DNA from: Jiangellaceae bacterium
Lineage (GTDB): Bacteria > Actinomycetota > Actinomycetes > Jiangellales > Jiangellaceae
Assembly (NCBI GenBank): GCA_014534205.1
Contig: JACVRX010000003.1
Span: 1 to 37,064 of the forward strand
Length of the DNA stretch: 37,064 nt
Reading direction: 5' to 3'
Shown here one piece after another: positions 9,640-36,347 of the stretch. The position numbers were made by a program, and so were the translations under genes. Under the pieces are notes generated by a model. It did not search any database. It was not told the origin of the DNA and saw only the letters and a list, made by a program, of their open reading frames with translations. The stretch's first letter is position 1. Each line of letters opens with the position of its first letter.

Positions 9640-9719
9640 TGGAATGACCACGTAGACCACCCCTGCCTATACATCACCAGGCCTGCAAGCCTGGTCATTA
9701 CGGGTACGCCTGGTGATGG
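9640..9719 (+). repeat. Dispersed palindromic element, copy R1 (partly decayed)
   Basis: tggaatgaccacgtagaccacccctgcctatacatcaccaggcctgcaagcctggtcattacgggtacgcctggtgatgg; aligns to copies at 23941 and 29422. Confidence 0.93.
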
Positions 9720-9745
9720 ATCGGGGGCGCAGCCGGCAAGAACGT

Positions 9746-22316: not shown

Positions 22317-23948
22317 ATGTCCGCGGGAGCCAACCAGCTCGCCTACGTGTCAACCCGCGGGCGGGCCGCGCTGACATTCCTCCTGCTGCTGGTGCCGGTG
22401 GGCGGGCTCCTCCTGGTGCTCGCCGTGCCGGCGCTGGACCTGCGTTGGGAGCACCATCCGGCCCATTTCTGGCTGGTTCTCAGTGTGGCGGTCGTCAACG
22501 TCGTGCTCGCCGTCATTACCAGCGGGGCGGCGACTGCCCGCGGCGACGCTCGGCTGTTCCTCGTGTCGCTCGCCTTGATCGCAAGTGCCGGGTTCCTCGG
22601 ACTGCACGCGCTCGCAACTCCTGGCGTGCTGCTGGCCGGCCCGAACCAGGGATTCAATATCGCGACGCCGGTCGGCTTGCTGCTGGCGGCCGGGTTGGCC
22701 GCGGCATCGGCCACGGTGAGCGAGCGGCAGCTCTCCGACAGGGCAATGCGCTGGATGCGCGGTGCACTCGTGGTGCTGATCGTGGCCTGGGCGGCCGGGT
22801 CGGTGGGCGGGCTCGGCGTGCTCAGTGGACCGCCCAGTACTGAAACACCTACCGCATTGCGGCTCATGGCGCCCGTGGCGATCGCTCTGTACCTGTTCGC
22901 CGGGTGGTGTTACTTCGCGTTGTATCGGACGCGCCGGCGGACCCTGCCACTCGCAATCGCGGCCGCATTCGTACTGCTTGCCGAGGCGATGCTGGCGGTG
23001 GCCTTCGGCCGCAACTGGCAGCTCAGCTGGTGGGAATGGCACCTGCTGATGGCGGTCGCGTTCGGCGCGATCCTGGTGGCGGCGCGGGTGGAGTTCCGAC
23101 GCACCGGGTCGCTCACGGCGGCCTTCGGTGGTCTCTACCTGGAGAGCACGCTGGCCCGAGTCGACGCCCGCTATTCGGCCGCACTCGGTGAGTTGGTTGC
23201 GGCGATCCGGGCCGACGAACCGCTGGCGCCGGTGCTCGCCCGGTTGCGCGCGGACGGTGTCGCGGCCGACGAGGTGGCAGTGCTCGAGCGCTCGGCGCGC
23301 GAGTTGGCCCGGGTGGACTCGCTGCTCAGCGCGTACGTCGGTCCGCGGCTGGCCGAGCGGCTGCGGCAGCAGCCGGCCATGGCCCGGCTCGGCGGGCGCG
23401 AGACCGAGGTCTCGGTACTCTTCGCCGACCTCGCCGGGTTCACGACGTTCTCGCAGAACCGGCCGGCGGCGGAGGTCATCGAGATGCTGAACTCGTACTG
23501 GGAACCGATCGTGCCGGTGGTCGCCGGACGGGAAGGCGGGTGGATCGAGCGATTCGCCGGCGATGCGATCATGGTGGTGTTCAACGCGGTCGACGACCAA
23601 CCCGACCACCCCGCCCGGGCGGCGCGCGCCGCGCTGGCCATGCGCAAGGCAGCGGCTGCGATCGCGGCGGCACACCCGGACTGGCCGACCTTCCGCATCG
23701 GCATTCACACCGGGCGTGCCGTCATCGGCAACGTCGGCGCCGACGACCAGCGCAGTTTCGCCGCCATCGGCGACACGACGAACGTGGCCGCGCGGCTGCA
23801 AGCCGCAGCTACCCCCGGCCAGGTGCTGATCAGCCAGGCCACATACGCCGAGTTGGGCAACGACGTACACACCGAGGCGCTCGGCCCGCTCGCCCTGAAG
23901 GGCCGCGCCGAACCCGTCCCTGCCTACCAACTCACCGCTCTGGAATGA
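22317..23948 (+). CDS. Membrane class III adenylate/guanylate cyclase
   Basis: Hydrophobic N-terminal half, then VSVLFADLAGFTTFSQ...FAGDAIMVVFN...RIGIHTGRAVIGNVG...AIGDTTNVAARLQ. Confidence 0.92.
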   Translation: MSAGANQLAYVSTRGRAALTFLLLLVPVGGLLLVLAVPALDLRWEHHPAHFWLVLSVAVVNVVLAVITSGAATARGDARLFLVSLALIASAGFLGLHALATPGVLLAGPNQGFNIATPVGLLLAAGLAAASATVSERQLSDRAMRWMRGALVVLIVAWAAGSVGGLGVLSGPPSTETPTALRLMAPVAIALYLFAGWCYFALYRTRRRTLPLAIAAAFVLLAEAMLAVAFGRNWQLSWWEWHLLMAVAFGAILVAARVEFRRTGSLTAAFGGLYLESTLARVDARYSAALGELVAAIRADEPLAPVLARLRADGVAADEVAVLERSARELARVDSLLSAYVGPRLAERLRQQPAMARLGGRETEVSVLFADLAGFTTFSQNRPAAEVIEMLNSYWEPIVPVVAGREGGWIERFAGDAIMVVFNAVDDQPDHPARAARAALAMRKAAAAIAAAHPDWPTFRIGIHTGRAVIGNVGADDQRSFAAIGDTTNVAARLQAAATPGQVLISQATYAELGNDVHTEALGPLALKGRAEPVPAYQLTALE

Positions 23949-24021
23949 CCACGTTGACCACCCGGGCCCGTACATCACCAGGCCTGCAACCCTGGTGATG
24001 TACGGGCACGCCTGGTGATGG
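23941..24021 (+). repeat. Dispersed palindromic element, copy R2
   Basis: tggaatgaccacgttgaccacccgggcccgtacatcaccaggcctgcaaccctggtgatgtacgggcacgcctggtgatgg; perfect 17-bp arms gcccgtacatcaccagg/cctggtgatgtacgggc. Confidence 0.95.
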
Positions 24022-24065
24022 CTTCCCGGCCTACCATCGGAACGTCCGGAACTTGAGAGAACAAC

Positions 24066-29421: not shown

Positions 29422-29502
29422 CGGAATGACCACGTACACCATGCCTGCCGGTACATCACCAGGCCTGCAGGCCTGGTGATGTACCGGCAGGCCTCGTGAT
29501 GG
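29422..29502 (+). repeat. Dispersed palindromic element, copy R3, containing a 50-bp perfect palindrome (29443-29492)
   Basis: gcctgccggtacatcaccaggcctgcaggcctggtgatgtaccggcaggc equals its own reverse complement. Confidence 0.95.
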
Positions 29503-33501: not shown

Positions 33502-35844
33502 TCAGGCAGGGAGAACCGCGGCCTCGAGCCGCCGGCGGAGGTGCTGCCCCGTCAGCGAGTGCGCTGCTCGGGCGAGCTCCGCCGGCGGCCCCTCGAAGAT
33601 CACCCGCCCGCCGTCGTGGCCGGCGCCCGGTCCCAGGTCGATGACCCAGTCTGCCCGGGCTACGACGTCGAGGTTCTGCTCGATCACGATGACCGTCCGC
33701 CCGTTGTCGATGATCCGGTCGAGCAGGCCGATCAAGTTGTCGACGTCATTCATGTGTAGGCCCGACGTCGGCTCGTCGAGGACGTAGACGTCCGCCTCGC
33801 CGGACATCTCGATCGCCAGCTTCAGGCGCTGCCGTTCGCCGCCCGACAGCGTGTTCAGCATCTGGCCGAGCGTGATGTAACCAAGGCCGACGTCGACGAG
33901 CCGATCGAGCATGACCCGCACCGGTCGCTCGGTGAAGAATGTCTGGGCCTCCTCGACCGACATCGCCAGGACGTCCGAGATGTTCCGGCCGCGGAGGCGA
34001 TACTCGAGGACTTCGTCACTGAAGCGGCGGCCCTCGCAGACCTCGCAGACGCTGGCCACGCCGGCCATGAAGGCGAGGTCGGTGTAGACGACACCGAGTC
34101 CGTTGCAGGCCGGACAGGCGCCTTTCGAATTGGCGCTGAAGAGCGCCGGCTTGACCTTGTTGGCCGCCGCGAATGCCTTTCGGATCGGCTCCATGATCCC
34201 GGTGTACGTGGCCGGGTTCGAACGGCGGGAGCCCCGGATAGCGGTCTGGTCGATGGCGATCACGGACCGGTCGGTCCAGGGCATGCAGCCGTGGATGAGA
34301 GAGCTCTTGCCAGAACCGGCGACCCCGGTGACCGCAACCAGGATGCCCAGCGGCACGTCGACCGAGACGTCCTGCAGGTTGTGCAGCCGGGCGCCGCGGA
34401 TCGCGATCCGCCCGCGAGGCGTCCGGACGGTCTCCTTGAGGTGCTGCTGGACTTCCAGGTGGCGGCCGGTCAGCGTGCCCGACGTCGTGAGACCCTCGAA
34501 CGAGCCCTCGAAGACGATCTCGCCGCCGTGCGTTCCGGCGCCCGGTCCCATGTCGATGACATGGTCGGCGATCCGGATCAGCTCCGGCTCGTGCTCGACA
34601 ACGAGGACGGTGTTGCCCTTGTCACGGAGCCGCCGCAGGAGGCCGTTCATCTGCTGGACGTCATGGGCGTGGAGGCCGACCGTCGGCTCGTCGAAGACGT
34701 ACGTGATCTCGGTCAGGCTCGAGCCGAGATGACGGACCATCCGCGTTCGCTGCGACTCGCCGCCGGACAGCGTCGACGACTCGCGATCGAGGCTGAGGTA
34801 GCCGAGCCCGATCTCGACGAACGTGTCGAGCAGCGCGCCGAGGTGTTCGATCATCGGGCCGGCACCGTGAGCGTCGATCCCGCGAATCCAGGCCGCCAGA
34901 TCGCTGATCTGCATCGCGGCGCAGTCCGCGATGTTCTCGCCGTCGATCCGGGACGAGCGGGCAACGGTGTTGAGCCGCGTGCCCTCGCAGGCGGGGCACG
35001 GCGTCGTCGTCGAGACGCGCCCCACGGCTGCCCGAAGTTGGGGTTGGAGCGAGTCGGGATCCTTGATCAGGTACTGGCGGCGGATCCTGTCGACGAGGCC
35101 GTAGTAGGTCAGGTTGATCATCTCGGTCTTCACCTTCGCCTCGGGGCCGTAGAGGAAGCGCTGCCACTCCGCTTCCGTGTAGTCCCGCAGCTTCTTGTCC
35201 GGATCGAAGAAGCCCGAGTCGACGAAGATCCGGTGGTACCAGCCGCCCACCTGGAAGTTCGGGAAGGTGATGGCACCCTCGTTCAAACTCTTGTCACGAT
35301 CGACCAGCGCGTCGATGTCCACAGTCGACACGCGTCCGAGGCCCTCGCAGTCGGGGCACATCCCGCCGGTGATCGGGTGCTCCTGATACTCCGGCTCCGA
35401 CCGGCCACGCTCCAAGGTCACCTCGCCTCGGACTGATCCTGCCGGCAGGTTGAAACTGAACGCGCTCGATGGCCCGATGTACGGCTTCCCGAGTCGGCTG
35501 AAGATGACCCGGAGCATGTCGTAGGCGTCGGTCGCGGTCCCGACGGTCGAGCGCGCGTTCGCGCCCATCGGCTCCTGGTCGACGATGATCGCGGCGGTCA
35601 GCCCCTCGAGCGACTCGACGTCGGGGCGGGCGAGCGTGGGCATGAATCCCTGGACGAAGGCCGTGTACGTCTCGTTGATGAGTCGCCGCGACTCGGCCGC
35701 GATCGTCTCGAACACAAGCGAGCTCTTGCCGGAGCCCGACACGCCGGTGAAGACGGTGAGCTTTCGCTTGGGGATGTCGACGTCGATGTCGCGGAGGTTG
35801 TTCTCGCGGCCACCCCTGACCTTGATCGCGCCCCAGGCGGGCAT
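33502..35844 (-). CDS. UvrA-like ABC ATPase, short form
   Basis: Two ABC modules: GVSGSGKSSLVFETIAAES, LSGGESQRTRMVRHLGSSL, GVAGSGKSSLIHGCM, LSGGERQRLKLAIEM, VYVLDEPTSGLH; about 780 aa from M 35844. Confidence 0.9.
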   Translation of the reverse strand: MPAWGAIKVRGGRENNLRDIDVDIPKRKLTVFTGVSGSGKSSLVFETIAAESRRLINETYTAFVQGFMPTLARPDVESLEGLTAAIIVDQEPMGANARSTVGTATDAYDMLRVIFSRLGKPYIGPSSAFSFNLPAGSVRGEVTLERGRSEPEYQEHPITGGMCPDCEGLGRVSTVDIDALVDRDKSLNEGAITFPNFQVGGWYHRIFVDSGFFDPDKKLRDYTEAEWQRFLYGPEAKVKTEMINLTYYGLVDRIRRQYLIKDPDSLQPQLRAAVGRVSTTTPCPACEGTRLNTVARSSRIDGENIADCAAMQISDLAAWIRGIDAHGAGPMIEHLGALLDTFVEIGLGYLSLDRESSTLSGGESQRTRMVRHLGSSLTEITYVFDEPTVGLHAHDVQQMNGLLRRLRDKGNTVLVVEHEPELIRIADHVIDMGPGAGTHGGEIVFEGSFEGLTTSGTLTGRHLEVQQHLKETVRTPRGRIAIRGARLHNLQDVSVDVPLGILVAVTGVAGSGKSSLIHGCMPWTDRSVIAIDQTAIRGSRRSNPATYTGIMEPIRKAFAAANKVKPALFSANSKGACPACNGLGVVYTDLAFMAGVASVCEVCEGRRFSDEVLEYRLRGRNISDVLAMSVEEAQTFFTERPVRVMLDRLVDVGLGYITLGQMLNTLSGGERQRLKLAIEMSGEADVYVLDEPTSGLHMNDVDNLIGLLDRIIDNGRTVIVIEQNLDVVARADWVIDLGPGAGHDGGRVIFEGPPAELARAAHSLTGQHLRRRLEAAVLPA

Positions 35845-35861
35845 CCGCTCGTTATCAGTCC

Positions 35862-36347
35862 TCAACTCACCGCTTTCTGCACGAGCGCGGCGATCCTTGC
35901 CTCGTCGTCGGCGGTCAACTTCGTCAGCGCGAAGGAGGTCGGCCACATGGTGCCTTCGTCCAGGTGCGCGTCGGCGTTGAAGCCGAACGTCGCGTAACGC
36001 TCCTTGAACTTGTCCGCGGGGGTGAAGAAGCAGATGACCTTGCCGTTCTCGTTTGCATACGCCGGCATGCCGTACCAGGTCTTCGGCGAAAGAGTTGGGG
36101 CGGCCACCTTGACGACGGCGTGGATTCGCTCGGCCATGGCGCGATCCGGTTCCGGCATCTCGGCGATCTTGGCCAGCACGTCGCTCTCGCCGTCCGCCTT
36201 GCCCTTCTTGCCACGGCGCGCCTCGGTCTTCATCTCCTTGGCGCGCTCCTGCATGGCGGCTCGTTCCTCGTCTGTCCAGATCTTGGACGACTTCCCGCCG
36301 GCGGTGCTTTTGGTGGACCTCTGGGCGGACTTCTGCGTGTCCTTCAT
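35862..36347 (-). CDS. DUF1801-like protein
   Basis: [42 protein letters not shown]; Lys/Ala-rich N-terminus. Confidence 0.75.

Follow-up and report, generated by a model that had tools for sequence, protein, structure and literature searches.

The window that we analysed, a 37,064-nucleotide stretch of a contig from a Jiangellaceae bacterium (JACVRX010000003.1), carries a three-copy repeat family on its forward strand, and its neighbours there are ordinary genes. The first copy, R1 (9641–9719), is a diverged element situated between convergent genes for a DSHCT/DEAD helicase (plus strand) and a 5'-3' exonuclease (minus strand). The second, R2 (23942–24021), follows an ORF with an adenylate/guanylate cyclase domain (22317–23948), the stop codon of which is the TGA in GGAATGA, inside the element. 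The third, R3 (29423–29502), is flanked by an MFS gene and by an ORF lacking any Pfam match, both encoded on the minus strand. Independent repeat finding grouped the three copies as one family, and delimited the first two as repeats at 9641–9731 and 23942–24032. No match above the curated threshold of Rfam 15 was found in the window. Elsewhere on the minus strand, an ORF of 814 amino acids (33502–35946) contains a pair of diverged DNA repeats at a distance of 915 bp, matching at 70% over 110 bp and at 75% over 65 bp, which perhaps mark a duplicated domain.

The original prediction was that positions 29443–29492 form a perfect 50-bp palindrome, and that R2 and R3 differ in its arms by a C:G to G:C double change that preserves pairing. 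Direct reading bears out both statements. The sequence GCCTGCCGGTACATCACCAGGCCTGCAGGCCTGGTGATGTACCGGCAGGC is its own reverse complement; by chance alone, 37 kb would be expected to contain 25 self-complementary pairs on the order of 1e-11 times. At the changed pair, R2 carries C (23969) and G (24004), and R3 carries G (29450) and C (29485). We number positions from the start of the end motif (position 0), so that this variable pair is 27:62 in both copies. The palindrome is part of a larger conserved unit, starting at 29423 and ending at approximately 29502, which was delimited by aligning it to 68 further one-ended sites of the same genome. This 80-bp unit, which we call type I, consists of a 19-bp end motif, GGAATGACCACGTACACCA (29423–29441), the hairpin core, and a tail, CCTCGTGATGG (29492–29502), whose consensus, CCTGGTGATGG, is common to nearly all type I copies. 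The R3 unit folds at -34.1 kcal/mol as single-stranded DNA (z = -9.7) and at -57.5 kcal/mol as RNA (z = -9.2).

The assembly to which the window belongs (G000; 1.66 Mb in 126 contigs, 76% complete) was searched for further copies, which were read as stretches around the matches. The end motif has 156 matches at three or fewer mismatches, compared with a single match for the reversed control, and the hairpin core occurs approximately 100 times, compared with none for its control, for a density of about one hairpin per 16 kb. The repeat is high-copy in extragenic space, as REP and REPIN sequences are. It takes two main forms in this genome: type I, to which R1, R2 and R3 belong, of approximately 80 bp (GGAATGACCACGTACACCA, hairpin, CCTGGTGATGG); and type II, of 90 bp, in which the hairpin has an end motif on both sides. 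Most columns of the end motif are near-invariant among the aligned copies, and across the family the end is about 19 bp long and reads GGAATGAYCACGTNCACCA. A weaker motif, approximately GTNRCCGTTCT, occupies the 11 bp upstream of the end motif in this genome, and the corresponding flank is pyrimidine-rich in other genera.

At several places the hairpin is lost or decayed beside an intact or nearly intact end motif (L042, L043, L054, L128, L143, L015:229 and L018 on the minus strand). The end motif may be constrained separately from the hairpin, although such intact ends alone are no proof of this because the copies were collected by their end motif. One type II copy (L119:87-226, on contig C65 of G000) has 25-bp flanks that are perfectly inverted with respect to one another; it lies near the contig start and is possibly an assembly artefact.

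If the R2–R3 difference reflects a general pattern, then arm differences among other copies should likewise be compensatory, a test set beforehand, and this is what the copies show. In 50 ungapped type I copies with 24 stem pairs, we counted 38 cells with compensated double changes, of 17 kinds of pair, whereas 2000 shuffles gave means of 14.2 (maximum 26) and 7.3 (maximum 13) and none reached either observed value; these counts are inflated to the extent that cells are non-independent events, because the copies share descent as paralogues. Sliding the partner register by one to three bases destroyed the pairing. Pair 27:62 is among the most variable (28 C:G, 11 G:C, 1 T:A and 10 unpaired among the 50 copies). 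In type II it is unpaired in all 15 oriented copies, and together with 25:64 and 26:63, which are paired only sometimes, it makes up a 3x3 unpaired patch. Many stem positions also show compensated differences from genus to genus, with the type II length remaining at 90 bp in most genomes.

The mispairs indicate the level at which pairing is maintained. There are 26 G-T and 33 A-C mispairs in the type I copies; since G-T is not the commoner, there is no wobble excess, and maintenance looks to be at the level of DNA rather than RNA. This bears on the proposal that the elements are bidirectional terminators or mRNA 3'-end hairpins, with the covariation reflecting selection on the RNA stem. The RNA hairpin is very stable, stop codons are no more than a few tens of bases away, and in genome G014 nine of 14 elements are placed between convergent genes, five between tandem genes and none between divergent genes, all of which would suit terminators. 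Against the proposal, in addition to the mispairs, a scan for hairpin-plus-T-run terminators found no T-run at R3, and the same junctions lack elements in related genomes. Placement in G000 is less biased than in G014, with 13 of 39 type I copies convergent, 19 tandem and about seven apparently divergent; the counts for both genomes are approximate because gene strand was estimated from codon-position G+C. We therefore regard terminators as quite an unlikely explanation of the family in general; termination is possible as a by-product.

The original prediction further held that the double change implies selection on, or copying through, the folded structure. The covariation upholds this as a pair of alternatives, and copying through the fold looks to be the better half, because G-T mispairs do not exceed A-C, because pair 27:62 is unpaired in type II, and because in one case an arm has been rewritten. 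That case is an element shared at one orthologous locus by G006 (L154) and Jiangella ureilytica (G002; L155). The 3' arm of L154 has mispairs of a kind frequent in Jiangella copies (with the consensus judged by eye), whereas the 3' arm of L155 is the exact complement of its 5' arm, as if rewritten to match its partner. A single template-switch event would explain L155, the alternative being several independent matching mutations; this is the one clear orthologous pair on which the template-switch case rests. A second orthologous pair (L183 and L231) shows a clean compensated swap, and in a third (L068 and L228) the changes are uncompensated.

Multi-base compensation arising from template switching has been documented (PMC8794818), as have template-switch mutations associated with quasipalindromes in E. 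coli (PMC7202029). Our case is like quasipalindrome correction as described in those reports in that one arm is rewritten to the other, with several matching changes at once; it differs in extending across dispersed repeat copies, many of which are still imperfect. Mispairs persist in several elements, as does the unpaired patch in type II, so arm correction is incomplete. On balance, copying through the fold is the more likely main force, with selection as a possible contributor.

The repeat is shared within the Jiangellaceae, a family of soil bacteria, and its carriers include J. ureilytica, Haloactinopolyspora alba (G008) and the Jiangellales MAG YX2bin44 (G003). A family-wide search pattern matches related or diverged forms in 14 of the 22 family genomes, and the number of ends in a genome ranges from none to more than 130. 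Copy numbers differ even within a genus, being zero in several congeners and, where the pattern matches, anywhere between one or a few and more than 100. Type II is 90 bp long in eight of the nine family genomes that have it (89 bp in G003; one copy of 92 bp in G014), in a comparison that drew on one or two copies from most genomes other than G000 and G014. The common form in Jiangella is a composite of approximately 150–214 bp, with two inverted halves flanking a centre that contains GGCAATCGCTTTCC.

At four loci in G006 (L189, L190, L192 and L193) the composite sits in a larger multi-copy mosaic together with a second palindrome (ATGATCATCAACCTTT...AAAGGTTGATGATCAT). No convincing transposase ORF was found in this 800–970 bp multi-copy repeat, which looks like a mosaic of non-coding repeats.

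Outside the Jiangellaceae (Verrucomicrobia, Myxococcales and others) we found isolated matches to the end motif, none with an attached hairpin; given the missing hairpin, we took these to be chance matches. A search for plasmid homologues of the repeat found none, and three stretches on viral contigs have an exact end match.

Comparison of orthologous junctions shows elements present in one genome and absent from another. A 205-bp composite is present in G006 and J. ureilytica and absent from G009, where the convergent genes overlap at their stops. Likewise, G014 has a 90-bp palindrome at a convergent junction whose orthologue in G010 contains instead a short spacer of unrelated sequence. Neither of these unoccupied sites is clean, and no direct repeats of 2–9 bp flank the 47 type II copies that we inspected for target-site duplication (24 from G000 and 23 from G014). 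Insertion as such is therefore our inference, with deletion in the other lineage possible, and the mechanism would be unlike standard DDE cut-and-paste.

These observations weigh on the idea of a classical MITE, that is, a DDE transposon reduced by deletion and mobilised in trans by a transposase for which the 19-bp ends serve as terminal inverted repeats. Inverted ends are indeed present in type II and the composite forms, most genomes have type II at a constant 90 bp, and copy numbers differ strongly between related genomes. Terminal inverted repeats are absent from the one-ended type I, however, target-site duplications are wanting in all 47 type II copies, and the loci read around the copies contain no autonomous parent or other ORF-bearing element with such ends. 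A transposon between inverted copies was considered and set aside, as the genes there look housekeeping by eye (release factor 2-like and MerR-like, with a phosphoglycerate mutase-like gene beside one copy). We judge a classical MITE unlikely.

Elements of three IS families have inserted in or against the repeat. At all nine of its junctions (L224-L232), an IS110-family element of J. ureilytica (PF01548; NF033542 above cut-off) meets the end motif at one and the same base and in one orientation, with the junction AACGTGATC|TCTCTG, or AACGTGGTC in one copy; a relative does likewise in Haloactinopolyspora (L268). The hairpin is split close to its centre by an IS30 element (NF033563 above cut-off) in G014, and IS30 or IS30-like ends break it at about this place both there (L271, L274, L279, L281 and L282) and in Haloactinopolyspora (L264 and L267). 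In G014 the right ends of an ISL3-family element (PF01610) lie directly against the outer side of the end motif (L269, L270, L272 and L275), and in Haloactinopolyspora ISL3-like ends adjoin the GGAATTCC palindrome within the element (L265 and L266). Insertion of IS elements into REPs is known from other bacteria (PMC1525189), and the IS110-family insertions resemble that system in using one exact site of a repeated palindrome at 9/9 junctions; our family differs in that IS110, IS30 and ISL3 elements use different places.

Such insertion by IS110 is one of several REP-like features, along with high copy number, intergenic location, a conserved unpaired 5' end and inverted doublets, that would fit a REP or REPIN of the known kind mobilised by a RAYT. 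The RAYT/Y1 transposase domain (Y1_Tnp, PF01797) was found in none of the 22 family genomes, whereas five of 14 control genomes were positive, so that only a very diverged HUH enzyme could have escaped; a published survey records a single IS-type Y1 subclass in the Actinobacteridae (PMC6006769). A search for the Y2 (IS91) transposase domain, PF04986, gave no match in the family, a negative that carries no information because the controls were equally silent. Furthermore, neither a GTAG nor a CGTC tetranucleotide is present at the hairpin foot in the aligned copies, where the end is GGAATGAYCACGTNCACCA, and the unit is two to three times the typical REP length (PMC3733652). Mobilisation by a RAYT is accordingly very improbable.

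We consider it probable that R3 belongs to a dispersed, non-autonomous, RAYT-less family of REP/MITE-like palindromic repeats, the arms of which are matched mainly by template switching. To the observed high copy number, variable occupancy of orthologous sites, arm covariation exceeding that in shuffles and IS insertion at fixed sites, this reading adds a conditional mechanism. An enzyme, none having been identified here, would spread copies within each genome; the arms would be kept complementary mainly at the DNA level, with one arm templating the other during replication; selection for the hairpin at amplification perhaps contributes; and the hairpin may have acquired a secondary, co-opted role in terminating transcription where it separates convergent genes. 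A rather unlikely variant is that the 19-bp end and the fixed-geometry palindrome (90 bp across genera) are copied by way of a folded single strand without a known type of transposase. Under this variant one agent, either an enzyme not identified here or host replication, would both spread the repeat and keep its arms complementary.

In a limited literature search we found no earlier description of this repeat family. Like REP, BIME and REPIN sequences (PMC3733652, PMC3116915), it is made up of numerous extragenic palindromes that bear a conserved unpaired end, occurring singly or as inverted doublets and in a lineage-specific manner; CGTC-tagged REPs are likewise without a known transposase (PMC3733652, PMC3116915). 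It differs from them in having an end motif of approximately 19 bp rather than a tetranucleotide tag, a palindrome of up to 90 bp rather than 20–40 bp, no RAYT in the family, and Actinobacteria as hosts. RUP, ERIC, NEMIS and Correia elements are short, non-coding, intergenic palindromic repeats of MITE-like character, with inverted ends and the ability to fold into hairpins. Our repeat is like them in all of these respects, and unlike them in that no target duplication and no parent transposon were found and in that a one-ended form is abundant. It resembles a REP or a MITE and fits neither definition fully, having no RAYT or tag on the one hand and no target duplication or known parent on the other.

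REP-like repeats are usually tied to RAYTs; the present REP-like repeats occur in Actinobacteria, in a bacterial family where no Y1 enzyme was detected, and their palindrome is 90 bp long in most genera. That three IS families use this one repeat family bears on the targeting of IS110 elements by bridge RNA. The copies also provide natural replicates for deciding between selection and template switching as the source of compensatory stem changes.
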